Origin: a bacterium
Lineage (GTDB): Bacteria > SZUA-79 > Acidulodesulfobacterales > Acidulodesulfobacteraceae
Length of the DNA stretch: 55,214 nt
Assembly (NCBI GenBank): GCA_021800805.1
Contig: JAJYYR010000002.1
Coordinates: forward strand, 1 to 55,214
Reading direction: 5' to 3'
The notes below the pieces were generated by a model. The model had not been told where the DNA came from. It made no database searches and was given only the letters and a program-made list of their open reading frames with translations. The position numbers and the translations under genes are program-made. Positions 2,234 to 19,123 of this stretch are shown here, piece after piece; positions within the stretch are counted from its first letter, which is position 1; each line of letters opens with the position of its first letter.

Positions 2234-2806
2234 TTATAGCTTTAAACCCGCCAGCACGTCGACGACTTCCTGGTTTAATCCCTTATTCTTATCATCATCC
2301 TCGTTTTTAAGGATTTTTATAGCTTTTTTACTGTTCATCCCGGTATGGCCGTTATAAAGGCGTTTCTCTTTAATTGCGCAAAAAGAATCCGCGACCGTAA
2401 GCACGTCCAGCAGGACCGCATCCACCGGGGTATAGACTATATCCGGATAGCCGTTTCCGTTTCTGTAATGATGGTATAGGATGAAACAGTTAATGTTCTC
2501 CAGGGATTTTATGTTTTTTAGCAGTTCGTAACCTTTTAAAGGATGGTCTTTAATGAGTTCAAACTCTTTTTCGGAAAGCTTCCTTGGAGCGAACAGTATG
2601 CTTTTGGGCATATATAGCTTTCCGATGTCATGCAGCAGCGCCCCGTATTTGATTGTTTCTTTATCCTTGCCGTTTATCCCTATGCGGTCCATTATGGCAA
2701 GGGATACTTTTGCAACGCTCCTGGAGTGTTCGCCGAGCAGGTGGTGGGTGTCGTCCATGTATTTTAATATAAAGTCCGTATATTCATCCAACGTTATCCC
2801 GTGCAT
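2234..2806 (-). CDS. HD-GYP domain c-di-GMP phosphodiesterase
   Basis: 190 aa, essentially one HD-GYP domain. Visible signatures are His27, the HDIGK motif (H59, D60, K63), His88 in DHPLKG, the double His 112-113 and GNGYP (117-121) as the GYP signature, followed by the DVLTVADSF helix. These are the metal and substrate ligands of enzymes that hydrolyse c-di-GMP to pGpG/GMP. There is no receiver or sensor domain. The start ATG overlaps the upstream stop (TAATG) and has AAGGAGG. It sits 300 bp from a GGDEF gene and one operon with a MshEN-type PilB, so it most likely lowers c-di-GMP near the pilus machine. Confidence 0.85.
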   Translation of the reverse strand: MHGITLDEYTDFILKYMDDTHHLLGEHSRSVAKVSLAIMDRIGINGKDKETIKYGALLHDIGKLYMPKSILFAPRKLSEKEFELIKDHPLKGYELLKNIKSLENINCFILYHHYRNGNGYPDIVYTPVDAVLLDVLTVADSFCAIKEKRLYNGHTGMNSKKAIKILKNEDDDKNKGLNQEVVDVLAGLKL

Positions 2807-3117
2807 TAAACCTCCTTTTCGTCGTTTATTTTTATCATTTTAAAATATTCGTCCGGAGGCGTAAGTCCGTTTTCCTCTATAAGTTCCATAAGCTCGCCGA
2901 CGGCCTTTTTCTTATTTTTAATAGTTCTTCCGGAAACTATATAAACCCCGGCGGATTCCACTAAGTAAATTCCTTTAGCGGGACCGGTTCCTATTATATT
3001 CGTAGATACTTTTTTTATCTTTTTCTTGGGCTTAAACTTGTCGATTATAGAACTTGCGACGATAAGGAAAAATGCGCCGCAGAGTAAAATAAAGACGAAC
3101 CATAAATTATTTTTCAT
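2806..3117 (-). CDS. Small single-pass inner-membrane protein, unknown
   Basis: 103 aa from the ATG at 3117, which overlaps the upstream GGDEF stop as ATGA. One membrane segment (about residues 5-25) is followed by a very basic patch (KPKKKIKK) and a short soluble alpha/beta domain of about 70 residues. No family recognised. Encoded exactly between diguanylate cyclase and HD-GYP phosphodiesterase and translationally coupled to both, it could anchor or sense for the pair, but this is inference from gene order only. Confidence 0.65.
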   Translation of the reverse strand: MKNNLWFVFILLCGAFFLIVASSIIDKFKPKKKIKKVSTNIIGTGPAKGIYLVESAGVYIVSGRTIKNKKKAVGELMELIEENGLTPPDEYFKMIKINDEKEV

Positions 3118-4295
3118 GCTTTTATACCCCTTGCTTCGATTTCGTCCTCTTTTACGCATCCTTCAAGCTTGTCCAATTTCTTTTTTAATTCGCTTAATCC
3201 TATTTCCCTGCCGTTTAATTGAATTCTACCGTTTTCCGAGTAAATGACGTTTCCGGCCGTTTTAACCGCATATCCTTTGCCGGCGAGAAAGATAATATAA
3301 TCATAAAGACAGTAACCTTTAGCCTTAAAAGCCGAGAACAACGGAAACACGACGTTTTCTTTTTTAATTTCCGGGTCCTCTAAGAATTTAACGATACAAT
3401 CCGATTTCCCCGTCCTTTCGCAGATCCGCTTGACCTCATCTTTGAGATGAAATTTCGAGGTAACAAGGTATGTAAAATCGTCGTAGTTGAGATTGCCGGC
3501 TGATGTCCATATTCCCGATATGCCGATTCCCGGTTTAATTCTTTTTACTGCCCCGTCCCTGGTTTTAGCCGTAAACCCGTTCTTATCCGGAGGCGGAAGA
3601 AGTTCCCTAATCTTATCGTCGAACTCTAAAGCAATCCGTTTGCCTATTTCTTTAATATCCTCGATGTCATCTCCGGAGACAAAGAAGAATTCATCGCCGC
3701 CGGCGTGAAACGAACTATTCACCTCATCCTCGGCAGCCTTAAATATTTCGGCCGCGAGAAGTATCGCTTCATCCCCTTTTGCCTGGCCGTAGCGGTCATT
3801 GAACTGCTTGAAATAGTTTAAATCGCCAAATAAAATACCGAACGGACGGCCTGAAAACCCGGCTATCTTTTCTTTGAGCAGCTTTACGCCCGGCATTTTA
3901 GTCAAAGGAGAAGAATTTAAAAGTATTCCCTCCTGCAACTTAAGGTATTCGGAATATTCGCCGGAGAGTTCCTCTAAATATTTCAAGCAACTCGCACCTA
4001 ATACCGTATTCCCGTCGTCTGCGGATACCCAGAACGGGACGTTTTTAAGGCCCGCCTCGCCGACTTCCAAAATTGCAACATAAAGCGGCGTATTCTCGGA
4101 GATGGTTAAGGATACCGGAAAATATAATCTTTCCCTGGTTATGCAAAACCTTTCATTAGAAAGTAATACAGGGATATATTTAGCTTCCGGAAACTCTTCG
4201 AAGGCTTTGTCCACGAACGTTTTATCTATCTTACGTCCGGGTGCGTTAAAAAGCCTTGACCTGTCAAACCTGAGACCTACTGTAAAATCCTTCAT
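3114..4295 (-). CDS. GGDEF-domain diguanylate cyclase
   Basis: 393 aa. An N-terminal region of about 140 residues of unrecognised type (possibly a sensory or PilZ-like beta domain) precedes a GGDEF domain: FGDLNYFKQFND around residues 156-167 supplies the metal-binding Asp and helix, and AGGDEFFF around 198-205 is the intact active site. The inhibitory RxxD motif is absent upstream of GGDEF, so product inhibition is not expected. A C-terminal extension of about 90 residues is unassigned. No membrane segment is seen. Predicted to make c-di-GMP from two GTP. The neighbours are an HD-GYP phosphodiesterase and the PilB/PilC genes. Confidence 0.87.
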   Translation of the reverse strand: MKDFTVGLRFDRSRLFNAPGRKIDKTFVDKAFEEFPEAKYIPVLLSNERFCITRERLYFPVSLTISENTPLYVAILEVGEAGLKNVPFWVSADDGNTVLGASCLKYLEELSGEYSEYLKLQEGILLNSSPLTKMPGVKLLKEKIAGFSGRPFGILFGDLNYFKQFNDRYGQAKGDEAILLAAEIFKAAEDEVNSSFHAGGDEFFFVSGDDIEDIKEIGKRIALEFDDKIRELLPPPDKNGFTAKTRDGAVKRIKPGIGISGIWTSAGNLNYDDFTYLVTSKFHLKDEVKRICERTGKSDCIVKFLEDPEIKKENVVFPLFSAFKAKGYCLYDYIIFLAGKGYAVKTAGNVIYSENGRIQLNGREIGLSELKKKLDKLEGCVKEDEIEARGIKA

Positions 4296-4741
4296 TACCT
4301 TCCCCTTCCTCTTCTTGGCGTTGCGGTTATGATTTTATCCGGCTCTTCTACCTGAACTAATTCCGCGCTTTTTTCTGGATTAACTTCTTCGCTTTCAAGG
4401 GACATACTGCCCTGCTTCTGGGATATATCTATATTTAACGTTCTTGTCTTTTCGAGGGACAATATTCTCTCAAGCTCGTCCCATCCGATTTCATTGACGG
4501 GGCCTAAAAGACCTCTCACGGATTCATCCTGGGTTTTACTTGCGCAGATTTCTTCTACCCCGACGTTATGGAGTTTTTTTTGTCTTAGGACCTTCACGAG
4601 ACCCTTTGCGGCTATTTTGCCGATTCCCACCAGAGGCTTTGCCGTATGCCCTCCGACTATAAAAAAAACGATTTTGCCGCCGGTTAATGCGGCCTCTAAT
4701 AGTTCCGGTTTTAAATCTTCCTTGTGTCCCGACTCTTCCAT
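4295..4741 (-). CDS. Uncharacterised protein of the pilus operon
   Basis: 148 aa from the ATG at 4741 (GAGGTG four bases upstream; a GTG at 4756 is the alternative). The N-terminal half contains a short hydrophobic stretch (KIVFFIVGGH) followed by a Gly/Lys-rich helix resembling a small alpha/beta domain. The C-terminal third is acidic and disordered, ending in a basic RRGRGR tail. No known family. It sits between pilC and the diguanylate cyclase gene with 1-base overlap to the latter, so it is probably part of pilus control or assembly. Confidence 0.6.
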   Translation of the reverse strand: MEESGHKEDLKPELLEAALTGGKIVFFIVGGHTAKPLVGIGKIAAKGLVKVLRQKKLHNVGVEEICASKTQDESVRGLLGPVNEIGWDELERILSLEKTRTLNIDISQKQGSMSLESEEVNPEKSAELVQVEEPDKIITATPRRGRGR

Positions 4742-4758
4742 TTTCACCTCTTTCACTT

Positions 4759-6057
4759 TTAATAATGCTGGTTAGGCAAGTTCGTTATTCCTGAATACAT
4801 CGGGAATAAAACTGATATAACCATTAAGAAAATAAATGCTACCACCATTCCCATAGCGACCATGTAAATCGTTTTTGTAATAATCTTAACTTCCATATCC
4901 GTTATATCTTTATAACGTTCAGAGAGTCTCATCGTAGTATCGTCCAAAGTTCCGGCTATCTCGGACGTATGTATCGAATCCAGATCCTCCGGACGCAGGA
5001 CTTCGGATGCGGCAAAAGCGTCGGCCAGGCTTCCGCCGGCTATAAGATTGGCGTAAATTATATCGAACTTATTCTGAAAATACTCGTTACTAGTGGTTTT
5101 ACGAAGATAATCCATTATCGATAGAGGCGTTTGCCCAGCCGATAATAGAACCGAAAATTGGTAAAAATACCATCTCAGGTAATTGAATTTAAAAAAGAAC
5201 CCTATGACGGGTAATGTGGCGAGCTTATTGAAAACACGGTGCCTTATATTTTTCCAATTAGTAATCCAGATATATAAAAGGCTTATAGAAGCTATAAGCA
5301 GTAACCCGGTATATACCATAAAAAACCGCCGTAGGGATGCAAATAAGTTAATAACGAAAAGCGTCCTGGCCGGGATATGCGGAAAACTCTTAAAGAACGT
5401 TCCGAAAGCCGGAATGACGTAGAAAAGAAAAACCAGGAACACCACTGATAAAAGTGCGAATAAGCCTGCGGGATAACTCATGGCTGATAAAAAAGATTTC
5501 TTATATCCCCTTTTGGTTTCGTAATAGCCGGCTATTTTCCTGAATATTCCGGGCAGGTCGCCGGCTTTTTCCGCCACGTCCGTCAAAGATACCGCGAACT
5601 CGTCAAATTCAAAAGCCTTAAGCGTAGTAGATAGCGTAAGTCCGGCATCTATGTCTTCCCGCGCCGCCGTTAAAAATTTATTTTTATTTTTATACTTATC
5701 TTTATAATATAAATTTACGGCGTCGTTGATAAAATTTTTAACTATGCTTTTATACCTGAATTTAGACGCTTTTCTGTCGGTCCTTTGATGCATGTGAAAT
5801 AAGGCTTTAATAATTGAACCAGTAGAATCGGTAAGCCCCGCGAGTTCCCTAAACATGTCTCCGCACACGGTATCGCTGAGTCCGGCGTTTCTGGTCTTAT
5901 TTATAAATTCAAAAAAATCGGGGATAACCAGCACCGGCAGAAATCCGTCATTTAAAAGCGCGGCGTTTACGCTATCGGCAGTTTCTCCTTTCTTGCGGCC
6001 CCATATTTTTTGTCCGGACGGAGACCAATATTGCACTAAAAACGTTTTAATGGCCAT
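4759..6057 (-). CDS. pilC: Type IV pilus inner-membrane platform protein PilC/GspF
   Basis: 432 aa, the normal size for the family. Two T2SSF repeats are visible: a cytoplasmic helical bundle (about 50-190), a first membrane pair around residues 195-225 and 245-270, a second bundle with SAGQTPLSIMDYL near 310, and a C-terminal membrane helix around 405-425. The repeat motif containing ADAFAASEVLRPED...HTSEIAGTLDDT is typical. PilC links the cytoplasmic ATPase to pilin extraction at the inner membrane. It lies 4 bases downstream of pilB, as in most pilus clusters. Confidence 0.92.
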   Translation of the reverse strand: MAIKTFLVQYWSPSGQKIWGRKKGETADSVNAALLNDGFLPVLVIPDFFEFINKTRNAGLSDTVCGDMFRELAGLTDSTGSIIKALFHMHQRTDRKASKFRYKSIVKNFINDAVNLYYKDKYKNKNKFLTAAREDIDAGLTLSTTLKAFEFDEFAVSLTDVAEKAGDLPGIFRKIAGYYETKRGYKKSFLSAMSYPAGLFALLSVVFLVFLFYVIPAFGTFFKSFPHIPARTLFVINLFASLRRFFMVYTGLLLIASISLLYIWITNWKNIRHRVFNKLATLPVIGFFFKFNYLRWYFYQFSVLLSAGQTPLSIMDYLRKTTSNEYFQNKFDIIYANLIAGGSLADAFAASEVLRPEDLDSIHTSEIAGTLDDTTMRLSERYKDITDMEVKIITKTIYMVAMGMVVAFIFLMVISVLFPMYSGITNLPNQHY

Positions 6058-6061
6058 TGTC

Positions 6062-7702
6062 TTATCCCGCTATTTGAAAATATTGCGACGGATCTATTTC
6101 CCCTGATTTAAGCTTTTCTTCCGCTAAAACTTTAAGGGATTTAAAACCGCCATGTTTTATAAAAATATCTTCCATATCCTGTATGTTAAAACTTCCCCTG
6201 GACCGTATTTCTTTTTTTACGGCATCCGTAAAGACCGCTATTTCCATTATTGCGCGGCGTTTTGCGTATCCGGTTCCGCCGCAGTATTTACAGGATTCTC
6301 CGCCGCGGATATATATTTCTTTTGTAGAAATTTTTTCTATATTTTTTTCAAGCGCCTTCCTGAAATAAATAGGTATATCGTTATATACGGCTATTTTTTT
6401 GCATTCGGGACACAGCGGCGAATAGAGCCTCTGCCCGGTTACGAGCCGGACGGATTCTAAGAACGCATCGATGTCTGCATCGAGAGTTTTTAGGCGGCTG
6501 AAGATACCGAGGGCCGAGTTGGTGTGCAACGTCGTCAACACCAGATGTCCGGTCTGGGCGGCCTCTAATGTATGCTTCGCGGTTTGTTCGTCTCGGATTT
6601 CGCCGACCATAATAATGTGCGGTTCGCTTCTGAGCATAGCCTTTAATGCTTCGGCATAGCCGAAGTTTTCAGATACGTTCATCTGGGTTATATTAGGCTC
6701 TTTAAGTTCTATCTCGACCGGGTCCTCTATCGTGAATATAGATTTCTTTTTTCCGGATAAAAGCTTTACGCTGCCGTAAAACATAGTCGTTTTACCTGAA
6801 CCGCAGGGACCGGTAGCGATAACCATGCCATGCGGATACGTGTATATACCCTGGAGTATCGTAACATGTTCCGCATCTAACCCGAGGCTTTCGAGGCTCA
6901 TTACTTTATTCAACCCGTGCAGCCTTAATACCGCTTCATGGAGCTTGTCTTTGTCGATTTTAGCGGTAACGGGCAGAAATTCAAGCCTTATATTTACTTT
7001 TAGGCCTTTATAAAGCTTGGACTTGTATATCATTTTAGCGTCTTTGCTCTCGCCTAAATTCAAGTTAACGTCGCATTTTCCCGCTATGATATTTATCAGC
7101 TTTATTCCTGAAGCAAGAGTTAAAATTCTCACGGTTTCGATGCCGGAAATCGTGTCTATCTGCAATAGATAGGTATTTTCGGATTTTTTAATCCTTAAAT
7201 TCGGCGAATTTTTAGCTATCGCGAGTTCCAGCACCTCGTCTAGCATTTGCTGCTCAGACATGTCGGAAGCGCCGCTGGCGGCGCTTATAAAGAACGAATT
7301 AAGAACGGTGTAGATGGCGTGTTTCGTGGACAGGACTACTTCGGCGCCAGCGATTGCGGATTCCAACGATATTTTATCCGCAATATCCTTCGTCAGTGAA
7401 ACGCACGCAAGGTATTTTCTGCCGTTTTTGGTAATCGCTACGCAGTTCTGGTTATACAAAAACTCCGAGCCTATAGTTCGGTTGATGAGGTCGTCGCCGG
7501 GGGCGGGTTGCAGATTAAGGCATAAATCCAGCCCTGCTTGAACGGATAAGGCGCGCGATATATCTTCGTCGGTCGCATACCCTTTCTCTATAAGTATTTC
7601 TCCGAGCCTTTGCTCGGAAATCTGCTGGGAAAGGAGCGCATCGTCGAGCTGCTCTTTTTTTATTTTTCCGCCGCTTACTAGTATTTCGCCGAGTCTTTTC
7701 AT
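6062..7702 (-). CDS. pilB: Type IV pilus extension ATPase PilB with MshEN c-di-GMP-binding domain
   Basis: 546 aa. Residues 3-26 and 32-55 are two 24-residue MshEN motifs (RLG.., G, I/L, L, Q at the conserved spacing) separated by exactly five residues, the arrangement known to bind c-di-GMP in MshE. The GspE ATPase follows: Walker A GPCGSGKT (298-305), Asp box/Walker B HIIMVGEIRD (362-371), His box TLHTN (391-395) and a tetra-cysteine zinc element (CPEC near 431, CKYC near 480). It powers pilin polymerisation. With GGDEF and HD-GYP genes downstream in the same operon, it is the likely local effector for c-di-GMP. Confidence 0.95.
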   Translation of the reverse strand: MKRLGEILVSGGKIKKEQLDDALLSQQISEQRLGEILIEKGYATDEDISRALSVQAGLDLCLNLQPAPGDDLINRTIGSEFLYNQNCVAITKNGRKYLACVSLTKDIADKISLESAIAGAEVVLSTKHAIYTVLNSFFISAASGASDMSEQQMLDEVLELAIAKNSPNLRIKKSENTYLLQIDTISGIETVRILTLASGIKLINIIAGKCDVNLNLGESKDAKMIYKSKLYKGLKVNIRLEFLPVTAKIDKDKLHEAVLRLHGLNKVMSLESLGLDAEHVTILQGIYTYPHGMVIATGPCGSGKTTMFYGSVKLLSGKKKSIFTIEDPVEIELKEPNITQMNVSENFGYAEALKAMLRSEPHIIMVGEIRDEQTAKHTLEAAQTGHLVLTTLHTNSALGIFSRLKTLDADIDAFLESVRLVTGQRLYSPLCPECKKIAVYNDIPIYFRKALEKNIEKISTKEIYIRGGESCKYCGGTGYAKRRAIMEIAVFTDAVKKEIRSRGSFNIQDMEDIFIKHGGFKSLKVLAEEKLKSGEIDPSQYFQIAG

Positions 7703-7703: not shown

Positions 7704-8276
7704 TTATATGCTGAAATAAACGGTTAATGTTCCGGCGGCCGTCGAGCTCGCCGTCATATTCGGGGTAAACGGTATCACCGTACCGGAAGAACTTGTGAAT
7801 ATCGTTCCTGTCCCGTATCCGGAGTCTGAATTGTCGTCGGAATTCCAGAACTGGGACGCTATCTGATACGCATTGTTTTCCGGCACCCCCTCCATGCTTA
7901 CCGTGAACACGTCCGCGGATATTCCTGCGATTACATACGGATAACCCCAGGGGTTGCAATGGGCTATGTTTAGTGACGTCGACGTCGGGGTGCATGAAGC
8001 GTTATACTGCCAGTTTGAGCCTAAGTCGTCATCGTTGATAAGGGCAGTTATACTGGCGGTTCCAACATTGCCGCCGTCATGGGATGAGTAGGTTACAACA
8101 GCCTGTTCAAGGCTGCCGATAGAACCGGCGGCGGCAGAGACCTTGGCGGACCCGGTTACCGGTTTTAATAGTATAAGATAACCGGCGGTAAGGATGCCTA
8201 TTAAGAGTATGGCTAAAAGAACTTCGATTAAAGTAAAACCGTCGGTATTTCTTGATATTTTTGTTGAGTAATGCAT
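7704..8276 (-). CDS. Type IV prepilin
   Basis: 190 aa. A leader of 13 residues ends in Gly, followed by FTLIEVLLAILLIGIL with Glu5: a canonical type IV prepilin cleavage site and stem. The C-terminal domain is Ser/Thr/Gly-rich, with two Cys (near residues 94 and 105) that could form a disulphide. Located directly upstream of pilB and downstream of the secretin gene, it is a strong candidate for the major subunit, although four pilin-like genes exist here. Confidence 0.88.
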   Translation of the reverse strand: MHYSTKISRNTDGFTLIEVLLAILLIGILTAGYLILLKPVTGSAKVSAAAGSIGSLEQAVVTYSSHDGGNVGTASITALINDDDLGSNWQYNASCTPTSTSLNIAHCNPWGYPYVIAGISADVFTVSMEGVPENNAYQIASQFWNSDDNSDSGYGTGTIFTSSSGTVIPFTPNMTASSTAAGTLTVYFSI

Positions 8277-8277: not shown

Positions 8278-9834
8278 TTATTTATCCTCCTTTTTTGTTA
8301 TTATTCTAGGCGTGAGCATTATAACGAGATCGTCTTTTGTATAAGTGTTATTAACGCCGGCGAACAGGGCGCCTATTATAGGTATGCTCGATAAAATCGG
8401 TATGCCGTAGTTTTGTTTGTTTTTGTTTTTTGTAAGTATGCCGCCGATTATCGCCGTTCGGCCGGATTTGACAGTTACCGTGTCTGTCATAGCCTTGGCC
8501 TGGATTATCGGATTAGTGAACGTGTTGTCGGAATAGCTGAACGTCTGATAACCGGTGATATTATTATCTATTAACGAAACCGTAACCGAGACGTCGTTGT
8601 TTTTGCTTATGTGCGCCGTGTAGGCTATAGAAAAACCGGTTTGCACCTGAGACATCTGTGGATATGTTTGAAGCTGCCCCGACACTCCGTAGCTTAACAC
8701 CTGCACATTTGATACATACGGGGTGGTAGTACTGGAAGAAATAAGCCTTGTTTGTCCGTCCGTAAGCATAAGCCTGGGTTGCGACACGACGGATACCGTT
8801 CCCTGCGATTTAAGGGCATTGATTACCGCTTGATTTGCTCCTGCGGACCCGGAAAAAGTAATATTGGGAGAGCCGACATTGACCCCGGCAAGGCTTGCCA
8901 TATTGGCGCCGACAGATACGGCGGAAGTTCCAAGGGGATTAGATTTAAAAGCATCGTTAAAAAGGAGATTCCAGTTTATTCCGTACTGAAAATTATTATT
9001 AAGGGTAATATCTAAAACTTCTACCTGTAAAAATACAAGCCTGGATAAATCTTTTTTGACCGCTTTCAGATAATCTACTGCTTCTACCACGCTTTTAGAC
9101 CGTCCTTTCATCCAGATGATTCCGTTTTTCTGATTAATAAAGAACTGCCCTGATTTTCCTAACATAATTTTTAAGTTTTTACTTAACAAAGAGGATAAGC
9201 TCTCTCCGGAAGACGCAAGAGACAGCGACAGGATACCGCCCGGATTGGAATTATTAGTCCCGTTTGCAAGGCCGTTCATCTGGGGCGTAGTAGCAGCCGG
9301 GTTTATAGTGCCTGTCGTGCCTGTCGTTCCAGCCGTTGTCTGTGGAACGGCGGAAGGCGTATTGTTCTGTCCGGCGGAAGATCCGGAGTTCATTCCGCTC
9401 ATGCCGATTACGGACTCATACGACGAAGATAAATCGCTTACGGGCAGATGCACTGTTTTTACGAGTTCGCCGTAGACGTCTAATTCGCCGCCCTGGTATT
9501 TATAAATAAACCCTTCCGGCGCCAGAATAATATTTAACGCCTGGTATAGCGGTATATCCTTAAAATAATAAATGTTATCCGCGGTTTTAAGTCCCGCATA
9601 AGGAACGAACGGGAAGTCTACCTGACGGGCCAAAAGGAATAGTGCCTGTTTGACACTCATATTGCCGGATAGAGATACCCTCTGCATAAGGGCCGCGGGG
9701 ATTACCTTTTTCCTTTCTTTGTGTTTCAAAAATGTTTTAAGCGGCGGTAATATGATAGCTCCGCCAGTCTGGGCGTAAGCGGCGCCCTGAAGTCCCACGA
9801 TAAGTATTATTATAGCTATTAGCGTTTTTTTCAC
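8278..9834 (-). CDS. Type IV pilus secretin (PilQ/PilN/MshL-like)
   Basis: 518 aa. A cleavable Sec signal peptide (about 21 residues, ending AYA) is followed by an N0/STN-like domain (about 45-125), a low-complexity Gly/Thr/Asn linker (about 145-195), an N1 domain and the secretin barrel with VSVVSQPRLMLTDGQ near 350 and the C-terminal signature IPILSSIPIIGALF...DLVIMLTPRI. There is no lipobox, unlike IncI1 PilN. It forms the outer-membrane gate for the pilus. The PilP-like gene overlaps it by 4 bases. Confidence 0.93.
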   Translation of the reverse strand: MKKTLIAIIILIVGLQGAAYAQTGGAIILPPLKTFLKHKERKKVIPAALMQRVSLSGNMSVKQALFLLARQVDFPFVPYAGLKTADNIYYFKDIPLYQALNIILAPEGFIYKYQGGELDVYGELVKTVHLPVSDLSSSYESVIGMSGMNSGSSAGQNNTPSAVPQTTAGTTGTTGTINPAATTPQMNGLANGTNNSNPGGILSLSLASSGESLSSLLSKNLKIMLGKSGQFFINQKNGIIWMKGRSKSVVEAVDYLKAVKKDLSRLVFLQVEVLDITLNNNFQYGINWNLLFNDAFKSNPLGTSAVSVGANMASLAGVNVGSPNITFSGSAGANQAVINALKSQGTVSVVSQPRLMLTDGQTRLISSSTTTPYVSNVQVLSYGVSGQLQTYPQMSQVQTGFSIAYTAHISKNNDVSVTVSLIDNNITGYQTFSYSDNTFTNPIIQAKAMTDTVTVKSGRTAIIGGILTKNKNKQNYGIPILSSIPIIGALFAGVNNTYTKDDLVIMLTPRIITKKEDK

Positions 9835-10571
9835 TGGCTCACCCCCAAAAATTTAATTCGTCCGTTATGCGATACTTTAATGCCGTCCGGTCGGACCGCA
9901 AGTATTTCGTAATTTGCGATATTTTCCCCTGCCTGGGCGTAATATGTAGCTTTGCCAACCCGGACTATCGCGTATCTTCCTGAAACGCCGAGAACCGTTA
10001 ATCCTGCTTCTGAAAAGCTTAAAGGTCCGGTAGTTTTAAATCCCTTGCCCATTTTTGTCAGGAGGTCGTTTATATTTCCGTTTGGGGCAGGAAACGAAGC
10101 CTGATTTATGCCGTTACTTACCGGCGGGGAAGCCTTAACCGGTTTAGGAAGCTTGAACAGGTCGGATATAGGCCTCTTCTTCGACAGGGCGGGTGTAGAT
10201 GCAGCGTTGTATTCCAGCGCCGGTTTATTAACCGCAGGCGCAGCTTTTACAATAAGCTCCTGTTGCTTTGGCACGGCTGGAGCAACCAGCTTGGACATAT
10301 CGTACCTCTCAGGTCTGTTTGAAACGATATGAGGACCGGCAGGAACTCCGTTTAAAAACGATGCGGGCTTCTTTGCCGATGCCGGAAAAAAAAGCTTATA
10401 GGCGAGTATAGCCGCTATTAATACGATTATCAGCGCCGCCGCCATTATTTTCTTGCCTATTTTCCTTTTAGGCTTTAACTCAACGTCGGACATTCCGAAA
10501 TCGTCATTTTCCGGCGGCGGGACATCCCCGTCCGATTCCAGAAATTTAGATACGTTTTCTTCATCCATCAC
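9831..10571 (-). CDS. PilP-like pilus assembly protein (GspC-type periplasmic domain)
   Basis: 246 aa. An acidic cytoplasmic tail of about 40 residues, one membrane helix (about 44-62), a long Pro/Ala-rich periplasmic linker and a C-terminal beta domain (about 185-246) with the pattern LTVLGVSGRYAIVRVG...YAQAGENI...ILAVRPDGI, which matches the PilP/GspC homology region that docks onto the secretin. It probably links the inner-membrane PilM/N/O-like complex to the secretin encoded next. The family level (PilP versus GspC-like) is uncertain. Confidence 0.7.
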   Translation of the reverse strand: MMDEENVSKFLESDGDVPPPENDDFGMSDVELKPKRKIGKKIMAAALIIVLIAAILAYKLFFPASAKKPASFLNGVPAGPHIVSNRPERYDMSKLVAPAVPKQQELIVKAAPAVNKPALEYNAASTPALSKKRPISDLFKLPKPVKASPPVSNGINQASFPAPNGNINDLLTKMGKGFKTTGPLSFSEAGLTVLGVSGRYAIVRVGKATYYAQAGENIANYEILAVRPDGIKVSHNGRIKFLGVSQ

Positions 10572-11176
10572 TGCCTCCCTATAATTACTAAACTTATTTT
10601 TGAATAAAAATTATTTGAATTCTTTATCGCTATGCTTTTAACTATTACCGGCATAGTTTGTAAAACGCGGAAAATAAAAATATAATCCTCCAGGTTGGGG
10701 ATTTCGGAAATTTTAAGAGTTACGCCTACCTTTTTTATTCCCGGCATATTTCTATAAGCAGAAAAATAAAGGCCTCCAGCGGCCGGCTTAACGGCGGATT
10801 TAAGCGGCACGGTTTCGAGTTTAGGCGCCGGCGTTACCGGAACGTGCGGGACCGCAAGAGAAACCGGAGCGGCGGCGGCCGATTTTTTAAGGCTAAGTTG
10901 TGCCTTAAATCCGTTCTGGTTTAAATAGTCCACGAATGTTAAGAACGTAAATAAGTAAGTAGAAAGTCTGTGGTTTCCAGCTTTTACTTGTTTTATGCGG
11001 GTCTCGTTAATAGCTTTTAACAGATATTCTTTGTTCCTTACGGACATGGCTTCGCCCGACAAAATTTTTTCGGTCGACTTGAATTGTTTATGTGTCGGGA
11101 TGATTTTATAGAAAATCACGTATAAACTCATAAAAAATATAAGTCCTGCGATAACCTGTATTATTTTATTTTTCAT
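10568..11176 (-). CDS. PilO-like inner-membrane alignment protein
   Basis: 202 aa. One N-terminal membrane helix (about 6-23), a coiled periplasmic region, an Ala/Pro-rich linker (about 100-140) and a C-terminal alpha/beta domain (about 145-202) that looks like the ferredoxin fold of PilO/GspM. It overlaps both neighbours by four bases, between PilM/N-like and PilP-like genes, exactly the position of pilO in pilMNOPQ clusters. The assignment rests mainly on order and topology. Confidence 0.65.
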   Translation of the reverse strand: MKNKIIQVIAGLIFFMSLYVIFYKIIPTHKQFKSTEKILSGEAMSVRNKEYLLKAINETRIKQVKAGNHRLSTYLFTFLTFVDYLNQNGFKAQLSLKKSAAAAPVSLAVPHVPVTPAPKLETVPLKSAVKPAAGGLYFSAYRNMPGIKKVGVTLKISEIPNLEDYIFIFRVLQTMPVIVKSIAIKNSNNFYSKISLVIIGRQ

Positions 11177-12312
11177 TTACTCTCTCCTATAATCCCCTCG
11201 AATGTAAAATAAGGTTTTCCGGATTTAGTAAAATTATAACTAACCTTAAAGCCGTTTACGGTAAGCACGGAGTATAGCTTATCGTATGTTTCCACAAAGC
11301 CGTTTATTCCGCCGCCGGCAGTTCCGCGTCCGGATACTGAATAAGAAAAAGCGGGCGCCTTCTCTATGTTTATCCTTTTTAACAATACCCCCTTAGGAAA
11401 CAAAGCTAAAAAGGATTTAATTTTGGACGGCAAGTCCGGGTATTTTAATATTCTATTTGTTATAAGTGCGCTCCTGCGTGCCATAAATTCTTTATTAAGC
11501 CGGACGATTTTATATTTCATGGCCTTCAATGCGTTTTCCTCCGACATTAATTTTTTATTCATAAAGAACGAGGTCCCTATTGTAGCAGTAAAAAAAGCAA
11601 GGGATAACGCAACGGCCGCAAGCCCCTTCCTCTTATCTTTCCTTTCTTTTTCCGCGAATTTAGCCTCTAAATTTTCAAAATACGGAATATTTAATTTTGT
11701 AAACGAGGCGTGGTATTCGTATAGTTCGGCGGTGTTATACTCTACTACGTCCATCCCGAAGATGTCTTTTATCCTGATATCGGCTTTATTGGAAAGTATA
11801 GCCGACACCTCTATTTTTTTTGATGAAAACTCCGAAAAAAGGGTAGATAAAATATGCTTAAAAGTATCGTTAGTGGTGTGTGTTACCTGCCCCATCGAAA
11901 AACCCTTGTATATGGCGCAAATTCTTATAAACGTTTCCTGAAATTCTATAAAAACTACCGTGCCGGATAATTTTTTATACTGCGTAAATCTCGTAATTAA
12001 ATACTCATATGGAACTACGGTATCGACGAAGCCCAAAGAGTAATATTTTTTAGTGTTGGCTGGGGCTGTGGAATATACCCCGAAACCCTCTTTTAAAGGG
12101 AAATAAAAATAGCTTTTATCTTTATATGCTTTTTTCAGGAACTTCCTGAAGGCCGACTCGTCTTTATAATCCTGATGCGCCTTAAACTTGATGCTTTTGG
12201 ATATGACGGCGAGCTCCACCAGTTCCTTCGGAATTTCCGGAGAAACGATGTCGGCACCGTCGTAATATTGGAAAGCACCGTATTCATCGTTGTATATAAC
12301 TGAATTAATCAT
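11173..12312 (-). CDS. PilM/PilN-like pilus assembly protein
   Basis: 379 aa. A cytoplasmic N-terminal region of about 225 residues with an actin-like look (FIEFQETFIRICAIYKG), a single membrane helix around 231-250, then a coiled segment and a C-terminal periplasmic alpha/beta domain (LPSKIKSFLALFPKGVLLKRINI) typical of PilN. This fits a fused PilM-PilN, as in MshI/BfpC-type proteins: the cytoplasmic part would contact PilB, the periplasmic part PilO. The long ORF on the opposite strand here is a shadow. Confidence 0.65.
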   Translation of the reverse strand: MINSVIYNDEYGAFQYYDGADIVSPEIPKELVELAVISKSIKFKAHQDYKDESAFRKFLKKAYKDKSYFYFPLKEGFGVYSTAPANTKKYYSLGFVDTVVPYEYLITRFTQYKKLSGTVVFIEFQETFIRICAIYKGFSMGQVTHTTNDTFKHILSTLFSEFSSKKIEVSAILSNKADIRIKDIFGMDVVEYNTAELYEYHASFTKLNIPYFENLEAKFAEKERKDKRKGLAAVALSLAFFTATIGTSFFMNKKLMSEENALKAMKYKIVRLNKEFMARRSALITNRILKYPDLPSKIKSFLALFPKGVLLKRINIEKAPAFSYSVSGRGTAGGGINGFVETYDKLYSVLTVNGFKVSYNFTKSGKPYFTFEGIIGESK

Positions 12313-12330: not shown

Positions 12331-13146
12331 TTATAATCCATGCTTAACACACCATTCGAACCCAAATAAAATAGAAATCGGCAGTGGAGGACATGTTCCT
12401 GAAGAGCTTGGCGAAATCCGCCGGAAATTGACCGTTAAAAGGCTTCTTGTATATGTCCGTCCAAACCTGCTATAAGTTATCTGCGTTATCGGATAATTCC
12501 GGAAAGCGCGCTCGCACTCCCATGCGCCCCAACCCTGTGCAATTTGCGAGTTATAGTTAAACCAGGCGGGCTGCTGCGTTTCATAATAGTTCAGAGCGTT
12601 ATTTATCCACCATTCGTAATAATCCTTATTATTGAAAATCGGGATTACGGGTCCGAACTCCAGGGCGCCGGGTATCATGTAAAGGGCGTCCTGCGTGGAT
12701 AACTCCGCAATGCTTGGGTCTTCCGTATAAGCCCAGCCGTTATTCTGCCAGACATAGTAAAAATTAGCCGTATAACCGCCGTTTGTTAAGGCCTGTTCGT
12801 ATGTATAATTACCAAGGGTGTTTGAATAAGCGATGTTTGCGCCGCCCATGCTCATACTGGCATCATGGCCGCTGAAATACCGGTTGTATATGTCCGATGT
12901 TACCTTAGCCGTATAATAAGGGTCATATCCCTGCCCTGTCCTTTTATTGTAATAGCGGTAGCCGAGTGGCCGCTGAAACGTGCAGACGCCGTCCGAATAG
13001 GAAGCCGCTGCGGCCCTTTTTATGAAATGCCACGCCAGAAGAAATAAAACAGCGAAGAGCAGCAGCCAGAATACCGACCCAACTAATAACGTAAGCGCTC
13101 TTAAACAGGGGGATTTTTTCTTCTCTTCTTTTTTTTGTTTTTTCAT
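12331..13146 (-). CDS. Uncharacterised membrane-anchored exported protein
   Basis: 271 aa. A Lys-rich cytoplasmic start (MKKQKKEEKKK), one strong membrane helix (about 18-42) and a Tyr/Trp/Asn-rich extracytoplasmic domain with four Cys. No family recognised. It starts inside the last codons of the lytic transglycosylase gene (4-base overlap) and precedes the PilM/N-like gene, so it lies at the seam between the secretion and pilus parts of the operon. A role connecting or positioning the two machines is possible but unsupported by any motif. Confidence 0.6.
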   Translation of the reverse strand: MKKQKKEEKKKSPCLRALTLLVGSVFWLLLFAVLFLLAWHFIKRAAAASYSDGVCTFQRPLGYRYYNKRTGQGYDPYYTAKVTSDIYNRYFSGHDASMSMGGANIAYSNTLGNYTYEQALTNGGYTANFYYVWQNNGWAYTEDPSIAELSTQDALYMIPGALEFGPVIPIFNNKDYYEWWINNALNYYETQQPAWFNYNSQIAQGWGAWECERAFRNYPITQITYSRFGRTYTRSLLTVNFRRISPSSSGTCPPLPISILFGFEWCVKHGL

Positions 13147-13574
13147 CTCGATATCTCCTTGTAAAATCCCGCAATATTTTGAATATAGTTATAAGTTTCC
13201 CTGGGAACCCCGCCGTTAGGCCCCGCATTATAACAGGCGAGCGCAAGCGCGATATTGCCGTTCTTTAAATTTAGGCAGTATCTTAAGTAATAAACCCCGC
13301 CTATAATATTCTGTACCGGGTCGTATGGATTAATGCCTATGGATGTCGCCGTAGCCGGCATAAGCTGCATAAGTCCGACTGCGCCGGCGGGGCTGACGGC
13401 GTTAATATTAAAATCGCTTTCCTCGCGCATAACGGATAAGACGAGCCCCACGGGAATATTAAACTGTTTAGATGATAAAAGTATCGCCTTTATTATTCTT
13501 TTTTGCGAGAATCCGTAAGCGTTCACCGTGAGCATTGCAACACATATAACCGCAATAGTTAGAATCTTAAGCAT
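13143..13574 (-). CDS. Lytic transglycosylase (SLT family, VirB1/PilT-like)
   Basis: 143 aa, a minimal secreted SLT domain. A signal peptide (about 20 residues ending AYG) precedes the catalytic Glu in REESDFN, the GAVGLMQLMPATA block, NIIGGVYYLRYCL and ALACYNAGPNGG: the full goose-lysozyme-type signature. It cleaves peptidoglycan to make room for the transenvelope machine. Being between the T4SS and pilus genes, it could serve both, as VirB1 does in T4SS and PilT in IncI1 thin pilus operons. Confidence 0.92.
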   Translation of the reverse strand: MLKILTIAVICVAMLTVNAYGFSQKRIIKAILLSSKQFNIPVGLVLSVMREESDFNINAVSPAGAVGLMQLMPATATSIGINPYDPVQNIIGGVYYLRYCLNLKNGNIALALACYNAGPNGGVPRETYNYIQNIAGFYKEISR

Positions 13575-14224
13575 AAGGACACCCCCCTCTTATATCTACT
13601 TGCAACAGTTAGGTTCTGTATGGTCTCAAATTGTTTAAGCATGAAAGTATTGCCGGCGTTGGAATATTTAAAATTCTCCTGTGCGGTAATCGTTGGGCCG
13701 GAATTTACCAGCGACAGCGTAACTACTTCGTAACCCTTGTCGTATCTTATATTTTTAACCGTAACCGCCACTCCGCCTATCTTGAAGGCCTTGTTTACGG
13801 CTGTCGGTTTTTTAGTGAATACCGTTAAGAATAATGCGTTTTTCTTGACTATAACGGTAAATGGGGCAAGTTGCCGTTTCGTCATCGGTGTAGTTTTTAT
13901 AGTTTTTTTATCTCCGCCGTTGATAACCGTAAATCCGGCCTTGGCCGGATTAGTGCCTGTATTGCCTTGGCCGGATTTAACTATTTGTACGACAGCGGAA
14001 GGCTGGTAAAAATTATTACCTGCCTTCCGTGCCGCGGGGGGTGCGATAAAGTTAATTTCCTTTGGGATATTCAGATAAGCGAACATTATACCGTTTAATT
14101 TTACTATCTCGGCTGAGGTTAACGGCCGGCCGGGGTTGGATGTCGCGTAAAATGTGTTATATGCGCATCCGGAAACCGTAACCGTAAATATTGCGGACAA
14201 TACCGCTAAATATATATATTTCAT
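13559..14224 (-). CDS. Lipoprotein of the T4SS core region, unknown
   Basis: 221 aa. A signal peptide with lipobox VSGC (Cys20) indicates an outer-membrane lipoprotein, followed by a beta-rich domain. It overlaps the VirB9-like start by four bases and the transglycosylase by 16. By position it would be the lipoprotein partner of the outer-membrane core (VirB7/DotC-D role), but it is much longer than VirB7 and I recognise no domain. Confidence 0.65.
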   Translation of the reverse strand: MKYIYLAVLSAIFTVTVSGCAYNTFYATSNPGRPLTSAEIVKLNGIMFAYLNIPKEINFIAPPAARKAGNNFYQPSAVVQIVKSGQGNTGTNPAKAGFTVINGGDKKTIKTTPMTKRQLAPFTVIVKKNALFLTVFTKKPTAVNKAFKIGGVAVTVKNIRYDKGYEVVTLSLVNSGPTITAQENFKYSNAGNTFMLKQFETIQNLTVASRYKRGVSLCLRF

Positions 14225-15123
14225 AAGTGGACCCTTATAATGATGAGTTTGCCGTTGCGGAAGAAATGGGCGGATACGTCGTTGGCATTTTTGTCCTGAT
14301 AAACGATATACCCCTTATATACTTCCCGCGGCATTATCTTTAAGTTTGCGAGAGGGTTCAGCACGTCGGCTTCGCTCTTGGAAGACTGGCCTATCCATGA
14401 GGATTTAACCCCGTAAAGATATACGCTGTGTAAAACTACGTAGTCATTGGTAGCGTTAGATATCTCGTAAGCTATATATAATTTATTTCCTATCCTGGAT
14501 TTATAAAGGACAGTGAAAGACAAGTCGCCCTTGGACGCGGAAATATTGAGCGGCTCTTTATTAATCGAAAGTATTAATTTTTCCACGTAGGTTTTGTCTT
14601 TGGCGACTTTTTTCTTTTCGGCGGCAAGGCGCGCGTATTTAGCGCCGTATTGCCGCGACAGTTCGGCTTTGGATTTAGCGAGTTTAGCCTTGATATAGTC
14701 GTTTTCGGCGCCCCCTATTTCGGAAGTGGTAAGGTCAAGGTCGTAAGTTACATCTTTTTTCGAGCTCGTTACGAGCTCTACGTTTATTAATCCCTGTTTC
14801 ATTAATATTTCCATGTTGGTCGAAACCTTTTTACTGTATGACTGCGGTAAGACTAAAATCTGGTTGCCCAAAGTCTGACAATTAAAATCCGCCTTGTCTC
14901 CGACCGTAACGTCTTTCGGAATGCCGGGAAGGGTAATTATCGATTCATACCCGTAATGCGTATTTAACTTATAAATTACGTCGTGATTTACTGTTAATTT
15001 GTGCACGCGCATGCGGTTGTAATAAGTGTAGTGTTTTAAATTAGAAATACCCATTGCGTGAACTGCTGCCGTCCATGACAGCGCCGCCAAAGCTATCGCG
15101 CTAAAAATAATCGTCTTCTTCAT
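14221..15123 (-). CDS. VirB9/TrbG-like outer-membrane core protein of T4SS
   Basis: 300 aa. A signal peptide of about 23 residues (ending VHA) is followed by an N-terminal domain with the VirB9 pattern: VIYKLNTHYGYESIITLP...VTVGDKADFNCQTLGNQILVLPQ...STNMEILMKQGLINVELV. A Lys/Ala-rich helical insert (about 160-185) precedes a C-terminal beta domain. VirB9-type proteins form the core complex with VirB10 and a lipoprotein. The domain match is by eye and moderate; DotH/TraN is the alternative. Confidence 0.7.
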   Translation of the reverse strand: MKKTIIFSAIALAALSWTAAVHAMGISNLKHYTYYNRMRVHKLTVNHDVIYKLNTHYGYESIITLPGIPKDVTVGDKADFNCQTLGNQILVLPQSYSKKVSTNMEILMKQGLINVELVTSSKKDVTYDLDLTTSEIGGAENDYIKAKLAKSKAELSRQYGAKYARLAAEKKKVAKDKTYVEKLILSINKEPLNISASKGDLSFTVLYKSRIGNKLYIAYEISNATNDYVVLHSVYLYGVKSSWIGQSSKSEADVLNPLANLKIMPREVYKGYIVYQDKNANDVSAHFFRNGKLIIIRVHL

Positions 15124-15974
15124 AGCTCTCCCCTATACATTTTATTAAAGGCTTTTTCGACCGACTGGACGTCCGAACTGCACGTCCACAAGCTCGATTT
15201 AATACTGTCTATATCTTTTTCTATCCTTACGGTGTCGTCGCCTCGCAAAAACGCAGAGGCTTTAAGAACCGATTTTAAATTCCAGAACCGCCTGTCGCTC
15301 ACTTTAACCTGATACGCCCTAATAGCGTCCCTTATTGCGTATAGTCGGTCGATAATCTCGGCTGGGATTTTTATCTTTTCGATTTCCCCGTAACAGGCGG
15401 ACAAGTCGTCCATGGTAAGGTAAGTTTCCGGTTTAAACGGTTTATCTATGCTCATAAGCCTTATAAATTCATCGCGGGTACGCAGCGGCATTACCTCTTC
15501 GCGCAACAAAAACCTATCGTAAAGGGCAAGCATGGATTTACCCTCTACGCTGTCCGGCTTCTCGTTAGATGTGGCGAAAATGGTTAAAAGGGGTATCTCC
15601 TTGCGTTTCGGAATATATACGACTTTTTCCTGCATAATGCTTAAAAGACTGTTAAGCGTCGATGGATTTCCTTTAAAAAACTCGTCCAACAGGGCTATAT
15701 GGCAGTTGTCTATGCCGATGCCGTCATTGGAGTTGACCGATAAAAGGTCCTGCATTCTGGTTTCAAAACCTATCTGGTATTCGAAGAAAACGAAATCCTT
15801 AACACTGTTCGAAAACGCTTTTAGTATGTCGGTTTTGCCGAGACCGGGTTCGCCTATAAGAAATGCGTTTTTTCCTGACAATATCGCAAGCATCATCATA
15901 TCGACAGTGCTTTCCCTGCTGACGTAGTGGCTGTTTAGCGCTTTTTTAATTTCATTGATTTTATTAAGACCCAT
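15120..15974 (-). CDS. MoxR-type AAA+ ATPase inside the T4SS operon
   Basis: 284 aa. Walker A GEPGLGKT (about 39-46), Walker B IALLDEFFKG (about 92-101), sensor 1 TIFATSNE (about 131-138), an arginine-finger region in LALYDRFLLRE and a C-terminal lid. This is the RavA/MoxR branch of AAA+, chaperone-like ATPases often acting on membrane or metal-containing complexes. It is encoded between VirB10 and VirB9-like genes with 1-4 base spacing or overlap, a place where VirB11 would be expected; no VirB11 is found. Its role in transfer is unknown. Confidence 0.85.
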   Translation of the reverse strand: MGLNKINEIKKALNSHYVSRESTVDMMMLAILSGKNAFLIGEPGLGKTDILKAFSNSVKDFVFFEYQIGFETRMQDLLSVNSNDGIGIDNCHIALLDEFFKGNPSTLNSLLSIMQEKVVYIPKRKEIPLLTIFATSNEKPDSVEGKSMLALYDRFLLREEVMPLRTRDEFIRLMSIDKPFKPETYLTMDDLSACYGEIEKIKIPAEIIDRLYAIRDAIRAYQVKVSDRRFWNLKSVLKASAFLRGDDTVRIEKDIDSIKSSLWTCSSDVQSVEKAFNKMYRGEL

Positions 15975-15975: not shown

Positions 15976-17100
15976 TTATTTCCCTTTTAACGGACTCATA
16001 AACATTATTTTTATAGGCGTCCGTGCCGGCAGCGTTATAACCACCTGATTTTCGTTTTGAGCGGCGTTATTAAGGTTGTTCTGCGCGTAATTAACCTCGT
16101 TCTGGGCCACGTTCTGCCTTATAGTGTTCTGATAGGTATATGCGCCGCTGGAATTCATCGCCGAGCCGCCGCCGGCAAACATAGATAATGCTCCCAGCAC
16201 GCCCGAGCCTATGCCTGATAACACATTTTGGACCGTGTGATAATGGGCGTCTCCCACTATGCCGGCCGAACCGTTATCCATAACTGCTATCGCATGTATA
16301 GCTAAACTCTTGCCGTTTGCGGGGTTGATTATCTGGTTAAATGTGATATTCAGCCTCGACTTGGTGTGTCCGGAAACAGAGCCCATGAATTCGTATCCGG
16401 CGGGTATAATAAGCTTTCCCATAAACGAATAAGGGTTTGAAACGACGGCGATAACCGGAACCTTCGTATTGTAAGAATATAATTCGTATTTAGTATAAGC
16501 GGATATAACCGCGCTCTCCGGTATAATCACCTGTCCGCCGGTGGCGGAAGCCGGTCCTACGGCCTTCTTATATGAAACAGGGGAGTATTGTGCGGATTGA
16601 GCCGTGCCGCCCTGGGTACCCAGTCCCTCGGCTTCTTTAATTTGTTTTAGATACGCAGGATCGACGAATATAATGCCGCCGGTCGGGGCTTTCGCTTTTA
16701 CGGTGGATTTGACGGCGCCGTCGGCAGTAGTATATAGTTTTCCCTTTAGTTTCGCAATTTCGGATTGGTATTTAGAATATTCATCTTTTTTAGGCTCCCC
16801 ATTTTGTTTTTTAGGAACGTAGAAATCGTAATGTTTCGGTTTTACGGCGGAGGTCGTGCCCATCATACTCGACTTTTGAGTCGGCTTCGGTTTCGCCTTT
16901 AGGAACGATGCTAATATACTCCCGAAGAAAATTATGCCGAGCAGGACGGCCGCAAGTATAATCCATCCCCAAGGAATAGACGATTTGCCGGACTTCAAGG
17001 TGTCTATTTTCTCTTGGATTTTGTTTTTCTCATCCTCGGTCAAATCGGCGTCTTCCAGCTGTTCTTCGAGTTCCTTGATTTTTTTATCTTTAAGGCTCAT
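15976..17100 (-). CDS. VirB10/TrbI-type T4SS inner-to-outer membrane scaffold
   Basis: 374 aa. A charged coiled N-terminus (about 1-40), one membrane helix (about 45-67), a Lys/Pro-rich periplasmic linker, and a TrbI/VirB10 C-terminal domain: PVIAVVSNPYSFMGKLIIPAGYEFMGSVSG followed by R-NITFNQIINPANGKSLAI, DNGSAGIVGDAHYH and a hydrophobic antenna-like segment around 300-320. It spans the envelope and senses energy from the ATPases. An Asn/Gln-rich stretch lies near residues 330-355. Confidence 0.85.
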   Translation of the reverse strand: MSLKDKKIKELEEQLEDADLTEDEKNKIQEKIDTLKSGKSSIPWGWIILAAVLLGIIFFGSILASFLKAKPKPTQKSSMMGTTSAVKPKHYDFYVPKKQNGEPKKDEYSKYQSEIAKLKGKLYTTADGAVKSTVKAKAPTGGIIFVDPAYLKQIKEAEGLGTQGGTAQSAQYSPVSYKKAVGPASATGGQVIIPESAVISAYTKYELYSYNTKVPVIAVVSNPYSFMGKLIIPAGYEFMGSVSGHTKSRLNITFNQIINPANGKSLAIHAIAVMDNGSAGIVGDAHYHTVQNVLSGIGSGVLGALSMFAGGGSAMNSSGAYTYQNTIRQNVAQNEVNYAQNNLNNAAQNENQVVITLPARTPIKIMFMSPLKGK

Positions 17101-19045: not shown

Positions 19046-19092
19046 ATTTTCTTATTTCCAGCAATATTATATATTTACTACTTTTACGCCTA

Positions 19093-19111
19093 CTGTCCGA
19101 AATTCGGACAG
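19093..19111. promoter_or_regulatory. parS-like 19-bp palindrome in the transfer operon
   Basis: CTGTCCGAAATTCGGACAG, a perfect 9+1+9 palindrome identical to the sites at 33151 and 35001 next to parAB. It lies in a 78-bp gap between the VirB5-like and VirB6 genes, the largest gap in this part of the transfer operon. A ParB-family protein could bind here as a partition site or, like KorB of IncP plasmids, as a transcriptional control point. Confidence 0.65.
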
Positions 19112-19123
19112 TTTAATTTATCG

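Follow-up and report, generated by a model that had tools for sequence, protein, structure and literature searches.

A 55,214-nt stretch of DNA from uncultured acid-mine bacteria (contig JAJYYR010000002.1; hereafter the window) carries a conjugative plasmid-type element whose transfer gene run appears to end in a type IV pilus (T4P) cassette with its own cyclic di-GMP (c-di-GMP) module. The cassette joins a GGDEF protein (presumed diguanylate cyclase, or writer), an HD-GYP protein (presumed phosphodiesterase, or eraser) and a PilB extension ATPase with an N-terminal tandem of MshEN motifs (presumed reader). We propose, with a probability of roughly 0.6, that this element-borne module controls a mating pilus, which suggests that the element times its own spread.

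By its gene content the window is a conjugative plasmid-type replicon, because a relaxase, a type IV coupling protein, homologs of VirB4, VirB9 and VirB10, a Rep-type initiator and ParA/ParB occur in it together. Relaxase, coupling protein, VirB4 and the core of a type IV secretion system (T4SS) share one replicon (the VirB9 match is weak). We know of no cultured host of the element.

A presumed c-di-GMP enzyme pair in the pilus cassette

Four genes anchor the cassette, and all were confirmed at the positions and on the minus strand given in a preliminary description of this DNA. They encode the 190-aa HD-GYP protein (2234–2806), the 393-aa GGDEF protein (3114–4295), the 432-aa pilus platform protein PilC (T2SSF; 4759–6057; PF00482, 117.7 bits) and the 546-aa PilB (6062–7702; PF00437 (T2SSE), 213.5 bits). 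Two small genes on the same strand are interspersed, one between the enzyme genes for a 117-aa protein with a single predicted transmembrane (TM) helix at residues 15–42 (2806–3159), the other between the GGDEF gene and pilC for a 153-aa protein without family match (4295–4756). From the secretin gene pilQ to the HD-GYP gene, intergenic gaps range from −46 to +4 nt on one strand. Over the longer stretch from gene u365 to pilinA they range from −46 to +78 nt; here the pilus genes follow on from those of the T4SS in a single run, and VirB4 lies 290 nt before u365. The preliminary description called the enzyme genes co-transcribed with pilC, the pilins and the T4SS; the tight same-strand run is there, and from shared strand and small gaps we infer that the pilQ-to-HD-GYP stretch is co-transcribed.

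The putative writer is divergent and soluble. PF00990 matches it with 39.2 bits over 74 of 161 model positions, TIGR00254 with 40.4 bits (cut-off 37.4), and hhalign places residues 146–262 on canonical GGDEF domains at 98.9%. Foldseek, run from a poor model, returned the GGDEF domain of DosC as best match (E = 6.6e-4). An intact GGDEF motif and the lack of an inhibitory RxxD site had been noted before, and both points hold: the motif and residues D158, N166 and D175 are invariant in all four family members, and by eye no RxxD precedes GGDEF in the window protein. We take D158, N166, D175 and GG[DE]EF to be the substrate and metal residues of the domain's N-terminal half. This half looks canonical and the remainder divergent, and we are unsure of catalytic activity. 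A word-based search through 5.8 billion proteins gave only three close relatives (99, 81 and 52%), and no relative was confirmed in viral contigs or genome contigs; one 16,075-bp contig lists both the GGDEF relative P0003 (52%) and the HD-GYP relative P0056 (61%), from the same source. Where the window has this soluble divergent protein, the same slot in related loci holds short, TM-anchored, canonical GGEEF proteins. The N-terminus is hydrophobic in all six of those from pilus loci, RxxD precedes GGEEF in two of seven short proteins inspected by eye, and three pilus-locus relatives are canonical GGDEF domains (PF00990, 133–148 bits).

Fold and ligand positions of the HD-GYP protein are well supported (HD_5, 66.1 bits). 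Residues H27, H59, D60, H88, H112, H113 and D140 are invariant in eight of eight element HD-GYPs, a set that includes the near-identical L084 and L087 (L denotes the loci compared here). These H, HD, H, HH and D positions are presumably the metal ligands of HD-GYP, so the earlier statement that all metal ligands are present stands. All eight proteins share the form HH[YH]R[NHQ]G.GYP, which in the window reads HHYRNGNGYP and is one residue shorter than the canonical HHExxDGxGYP. We presume that the protein is a c-di-GMP phosphodiesterase.

Homologs of the 117-aa TM protein occur in six element loci (L060, L063, L065, L083, L084 and L089), where they adjoin the GGDEF gene or PilC; they share the stretch Y[IV]V[SA]G..[IV]K...KA. 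The homolog is doubled in L083 and L084.

PilB carries a tandem MshEN receptor motif

The N-terminus of PilB matches NF053729 (the MshE-related c-di-GMP_motif of NCBIfam) over residues 3–55 with 59.4 bits against a cut-off of 38. Two motifs of 24 residues each (3–26 and 32–55) are separated by a 5-residue spacer. Pfam, at E 0.01, listed no MshEN-type family for PilB; phmmer aligned residues 3–63 to the c-di-GMP domains of PilF (8pfa, 8pdk) and residues 2–60 to MshE (5htl). The lengths and spacing given in the preliminary description are thus right, but its word "exact" goes too far. Motif I agrees with the strict consensus of PMC5013675 at 10 of 11 specified positions and motif II at 8 of 11, the deviations being K at position 11 of motif I and Y11, A12 and I17 in motif II. 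Position 11 of motif I also departs from the relaxed pattern of that paper.

The ligand contacts are better kept. Scoring six positions per motif by class (R/K, L/I/V/M, G, L/I/V/M, L/I/V/M, Q), all twelve are retained in the window PilB, which reads RLG...L...L..Q in both motifs apart from a single I in place of L in motif II. Among 17 T4a-type PilBs (the window, six from elements, eight of an approximately 50% identity tier and two others) only the window keeps 12 of 12; the second Gln is lost in every one of the eight PilBs of the ~50% tier. NF053729 scored above cut-off in all nine element ATPases tested, six T4a-type and three T4b-like. Beside the window, the T4a-type scores were 49.9 bits in L060, 43.4 in L063, 49.6 in L064, 45.9 in L065 and 48.5 in L084. 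The single Candidatus Manganitrophus plasmid ATPase tested also passed, and no match was listed for IncI1 PilQ or Nitratiruptor GspE. We presume the window PilB to be a c-di-GMP reader.

The enzyme pair recurs on divergent elements and is absent from control pilus loci

The preliminary description had proposed looking for other elements in which an MshEN-bearing PilB has GGDEF and HD-GYP neighbors. Such elements exist: enzyme genes recur between PilC and the pilins in divergent T4a-type cassettes. Counting the window, seven of eight T4a-type element loci have a GGDEF gene, seven have an HD-GYP gene and six have both; the L065 HD-GYP is of a different, canonical type and lies upstream of the pilus genes. 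Because L083, L084 and L089 seem to be a single element sampled from three genomes and were located through their HD-GYP, the fair test is the PilB-selected set, comprising all four PilBs of the 38–42% identity tier (L060, L063, L064 and L065). There, a GGDEF gene lies within 5 kb after PilC in three of four loci (L060, L063, L064) and an HD-GYP gene is present in three of four (L060, L064, L065). With a background of about one GGDEF per 134 kb in 30 genomes (406 matches in 54.5 Mb), at least three of four by chance in a 5-kb same-strand slot has a probability of ~2.5e-5, on the assumption, only partly true, that the loci are independent. A wider chance figure, for five of six loci, was set aside, since some of those loci had been located through the HD-GYP and its assumed 2-kb slot does not fit L064.

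Control T4P loci lack the enzymes. Neither GGDEF nor HD-GYP occurs in 10 loci of the ~50% PilB tier (taken from 14 places at 49–57%) or in two of the 32–34% tier (taken from six). For GGDEF, three of four against 0 of 12 gives a Fisher p of 0.007, again treating loci as independent when they are not fully so. The enzyme hidden Markov models were built partly from element sequences and match those by construction; they are informative for absence from controls. Long contigs (up to 589 kb) and shared gene order point to a chromosomal location of the control loci, some of which are on short contigs. Chance insertion into the slot was considered and rejected on the control loci and the GGDEF density estimate.

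Selecting by HD-GYP gives a similar picture. Nine of 23 matches form a close group (42–61%, aligned from query residue 4; one cut by a contig end), eight of the nine lie in pilus clusters, and seven of these eight also have a GGDEF gene; the other 14 matches are generic or partial and were not counted. The join of T4SS to pilus seen in the window is found again in L059/L060 and L084/L093, and relaxase, T4SS, pilus, GGDEF and HD-GYP share a single contig in G002:C14 and G025:C2. In the PilB tree the window groups with the ~50% tier (98/97), apart from the PilBs of other elements, with a long-branch warning; the secretin tree fails to resolve the grouping. Since a PilB of this affinity nevertheless stands beside the enzyme pair, elements may have swapped their pilus cores and retained the c-di-GMP genes.

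c-di-GMP genes in a second pilus type and in other transfer systems

Relatives of the element fall in the SZUA-79/Candidatus Acidulodesulfobacterales lineage. An alignment-based search found VirB4 relatives at 27 loci in genome contigs, from SZUA-79, Candidatus Acididesulfobacter diazotrophicus and a "Deltaproteobacteria bacterium", and the VirB4 family is present in 27 of the 30 genomes compared (E 1e-120; the phylum set equals the order set). These relatives suggest that the host of the window belongs to the same lineage. By identity to the window these VirB4s form classes of ~48% and ~66%, the latter being the element class. The VirB4 pattern had no match in viral contigs, and a Myxococcus plasmid with a VirB4 relative has no annotated T4P.

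Some relatives pair the T4SS with a T4b-like pilus, a label that rests on PAP_PilO in L062. An N-terminal pattern search and Pfam suggested that their ATPases lack MshEN; NF053729 overturned this by locating an internal tandem at residues ~199–263 in L062 (gene at 2266–3966; 39.5 bits), L088 (7526–9196; 44.9 bits) and L086 (348–2024; 43.8 bits). The spacer is 10 residues in L062 and L088, and contacts are kept at 12 of 12 positions in L062 and 11 of 12 in L088 and L086 (motif II of L086 was located by testing a series of offsets). A second pilus type thus seems to have retained or acquired the receptor motif, at another site in the protein. L062 and L088 have both GGDEF and HD-GYP genes and L085/L086 only HD-GYP; a PilT-like ATPase is present in two T4b-like loci.

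c-di-GMP genes also accompany transfer systems of other kinds. L090 has an F-type cluster with TraC, TrbI, TraK and TraG in which a small GGDEF gene is flanked by an S26-peptidase-like gene and TraH; L091 and L092 have a similar small GGDEF with neighbors alike by size only. The ~48% VirB4 class belongs to a conserved T4SS of the phylum that is probably chromosomal, and no pilus genes were found on nine annotated stretches of it. A GGDEF gene lies upstream in 14 of the 15 loci with at least 7.9 kb of flank (20 loci scanned), a large one occupying 4912–7872 of L007. The two upstream examples scanned, just before the T4SS, are a kinase-GGDEF (PAS-HisKA-receiver-receiver-GGDEF) and a GGDEF-EAL protein (PAS-GGDEF-EAL). 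A broader and more tentative idea, which we hold at somewhat less than even odds, is that type IV secretion and mating in SZUA-79 are switched by c-di-GMP in general. At least three kinds of element (T4SS with T4a pilus, the same T4SS with T4b-like pilus, and the F-type tra cluster) would then carry their own enzymes and, by supplying writer, eraser and reader, plug into host control or escape it.

Layout of the element

Read along the minus strand, the transfer arm runs VirB4, VirB10, MoxR ATPase, VirB9, SLT transglycosylase, PilM/N, PilO and PilP positions, secretin, prepilin, PilB, PilC, the 153-aa protein, GGDEF, the 117-aa protein, HD-GYP and prepilins. The VirB4/TraC ATPase occupies 20512–23094 (PF19044, 89.9 bits; TIGR02746 TraC, 206.9 bits, under cut-off), VirB10/TrbI 15976–17100 (PF03743, 58.7 bits), a MoxR-type AAA+ ATPase 15120–15974, the VirB9-like protein 14221–15123 (TIGR02781, 27.3 bits, and PF03524, 18.4 bits, both weak and under cut-off) and the VirB1-like SLT transglycosylase 13143–13574 (PF01464, 80.2 bits). 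A homolog of the MoxR-type ATPase follows VirB10 in both VirB4 classes.

Three genes without Pfam match, named by position, follow at 11173–12312 (PilM/N), 10568–11176 (PilO) and 9831–10571 (PilP), with homologs similarly placed in element and control T4P loci. Next come the MshL/PilQ-like secretin (8278–9834; PF00263, 114.2 bits; best NCBIfam match TIGR02519 MshL, 165 bits, under cut-off) and a prepilin-like protein (7704–8276; PF07963, 28.6 bits). Two further prepilin-like genes lie downstream of HD-GYP at 1265–1843 and 689–1249, both on the minus strand and homologous to element-locus pilins (PF07963 for 689–1249 only); a third (<680) runs off the window. The palindrome CGACCGGTCGAAATTTTCGACCGGTCG (2204–2230) sits in the gap after the HD-GYP gene. 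The window's HD-GYP cluster is listed on 24 contigs, the longest of 306,675 bp, so the element may exceed the window or sometimes be integrated.

The other arm holds the replication, partition and mobilization genes, with iterons (direct repeats of 22 bp) and a Rep-type initiator for plasmid replication (29722–31054, plus strand; initiator 29891–31054, with weak RPA/Rep_3/TrfA matches under cut-off), ParA/ParB, a TrwC-type (MOBF) relaxase domain (35320–36423, plus strand; PF08751, 146 bits), a RecD-like helicase and a TraD-like coupling protein (39330–41138, plus strand; PF10412, 186.1 bits). Cumulative GC skew reaches its minimum near the iterons. The palindrome ACTGTCCGAAATTCGGACAGT occurs three times (19092–19112, 33150–33170 and 35000–35020), before the u430-to-pilin run, parA and the relaxase, and looks like a shared operator.

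Other features lie scattered across the window. A 300-bp direct repeat, 95% identical (20229–20528 and 28341–28640), overlaps a small lipoprotein-like gene whose homolog follows VirB4 in L059. Cargo genes encode an ArsB arsenite pump and an IS605 TnpB-like protein (51284–52648; 47697–48953), a tRNA-Pro gene lies at 50988–51064, and by eye the right end (55120–55214) has two short stretches resembling tRNA-Ser 3' ends.

A proposed switch for the mating pilus and its alternatives

As far as is known, conjugation is mainly controlled through transcription, quorum signals or entry exclusion. In the mechanism we propose, the GGDEF protein would make c-di-GMP, which the MshEN tandem would bind; by analogy to MshE, binding would turn PilB on and extend the pilus. 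The HD-GYP protein would degrade the messenger and reset PilB. The element could thereby extend a mating or adhesion pilus, stabilize contact between donor and recipient, and then release it. According to PMC7096442, c-di-GMP acting with MshE promotes extension of the MSHA pilus, and PMC9045228 describes the T4P of plasmid TP114 as important for transfer in broth and for mating-pair stabilization. If the proposal is true, the element would set the level of a second messenger to which its own pilus motor responds. Such a switch would be fast and post-translational, and it would couple transfer to contact with surfaces or to the state of a biofilm. Because c-di-GMP genes occur repeatedly in one phylum's transfer loci, with the receptor motif in two pilus motors, the idea is open to tests by comparative analysis and by simple assays of small proteins.

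Several observations weigh against this proposal. For the writer, Pfam spans less than half of the GGDEF domain, the hhalign match ends at residue 262 and the AlphaFold model is poor (pLDDT 50), so the positions of its C-terminal catalytic residues were assigned by eye alone; for the eraser, the GYP motif departs from the canonical form. The pair is incomplete in some relatives, with no GGDEF in L065 or L085/L086 and no HD-GYP in L063 (nor in L097, the left end of the L063 contig). On the reader side, all six other T4a-type element PilBs keep only five of six contacts in motif II, L063 keeps four of six in motif I, and NF053729 exceeds its cut-off in all five PilBs tested from control loci without nearby enzymes (three of three from the ~50% tier, two of two from the 32–34% tier). 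Since control loci carry MshEN too, the enzyme pair is the element-specific part, and host PilBs with MshEN would allow crosstalk in both directions. Promoter and terminator scans stayed at chance level, and no prepilin peptidase or PilT turned up among the window proteins scanned, a subset of the open reading frames. The earlier interpretation of this DNA is therefore upheld in part: the conjugative element, the recurring pair and MshEN in nine of nine element ATPases favor it, while the motifs are inexact and MshEN is not specific to elements.

The same enzymes might instead act on the host, shifting biofilm and motility so that transfer is favored indirectly, with the nearby pilus uninvolved or just one output among many. 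Precedent exists in PMC10672970, where DgcK/DgcL overexpression alters biofilm and motility, and in PMC4542580, where c-di-GMP synthesis belongs to the variable cargo of SXT/R391 integrative and conjugative elements. Element enzymes could also reach much in these hosts, with their 7–23 GGDEFs per genome and MshEN PilBs of their own. Cargo, however, would be expected in variable hotspots; the enzyme genes instead recur between PilC and the pilins, and the receptor motif is in the element's own ATPases, which makes this explanation unlikely in our view. It is quite improbable, too, that the cassette encodes a plasmid-borne attachment or twitching pilus whose module regulates adhesion or biofilm, with conjugation incidental. 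The nearest relatives of the window's PilB and secretin belong to the T4P of a probably chromosomal tier (a placement the secretin tree does not resolve), and the L063 stretch combines pilus genes with a GGDEF gene but has no T4SS; yet in the window the pilus genes run on from the T4SS genes, L059/L060 and L084/L093 repeat the join, and plasmid or island T4P that serve transfer are known (PMC9045228, PMC5297154).

The enzymes could also have lost catalysis and serve the pilus as ligand sensors or scaffolds, as a divergent GGDEF with a weak partial Pfam match and no I-site, and a shortened GYP motif in eight of eight proteins, might suggest. With GGDEF substrate and metal positions invariant in four of four, HD-GYP ligands in eight of eight, and three pilus-locus relatives scoring as canonical GGDEFs, we regard such loss of one or both activities as very improbable. 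An element-borne switch acting on the mating pilus remains the reading we prefer.

Comparison with known systems

Among the matches listed, the open literature (subscription journals and bioRxiv being outside the scope) held no account of element-encoded c-di-GMP control of a mating pilus. The main text of PMC6776010, which named the host order, contains none of the terms c-di-GMP, pili, conjugat-, type IV or plasmid. As possible parallels we considered, and set aside, the HD-GYP genes that MPF_F plasmids of Pelobacter and Enterobacter carry in metal-resistance and fimbrial regions.

The window ATPase resembles MshE of the Vibrio cholerae MSHA pilus and PilF of Thermus in its N-terminal tandem of 24-residue motifs, 5-residue spacer and twelve kept contacts. 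It differs in lying on a conjugative element with its own presumed cyclase and phosphodiesterase and in matching only part of the strict consensus, and its T4b-like relatives differ further in their internal tandem with, in L062 and L088, a 10-residue spacer. IncI plasmids (R64, TP114 and the IncI1 plasmid in L081) likewise combine a T4P with a T4SS on a conjugative plasmid; unlike the window, the L081 PilQ has no NF053729 match and no GGDEF or HD-GYP gene was found in its 19-kb stretch. SXT/R391 elements, through DgcK/DgcL, share with the window a diguanylate cyclase encoded by a conjugative element (PMC4542580, PMC10672970), but theirs lies in a cargo region, and the available text mentions no phosphodiesterase or MshEN ATPase partner.

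The nearest public case is Thioalkalivibrio pTK9001, a conjugative plasmid (MOBH, MPF_T) with two T4P ATPases above the NF053729 cut-off (57.6 and 57.2 bits) and a GGDEF gene ~3 kb from one of them. Unlike in the window, no HD-GYP was found in its 25-kb stretch, the GGDEF gene is on the strand opposite to the nearer ATPase, and the final Gln of motif II is missing from both ATPases. With this plasmid on record, the "new control layer" of the preliminary description is new as a complete set, though not in each of its parts. Element-borne diguanylate cyclases, plasmid T4P and MshEN ATPases are each known singly. What has no counterpart among the open-literature matches listed is the full set, a presumed diguanylate cyclase, a presumed phosphodiesterase and an MshEN-bearing ATPase placed together within a transfer gene run and recurring across elements.

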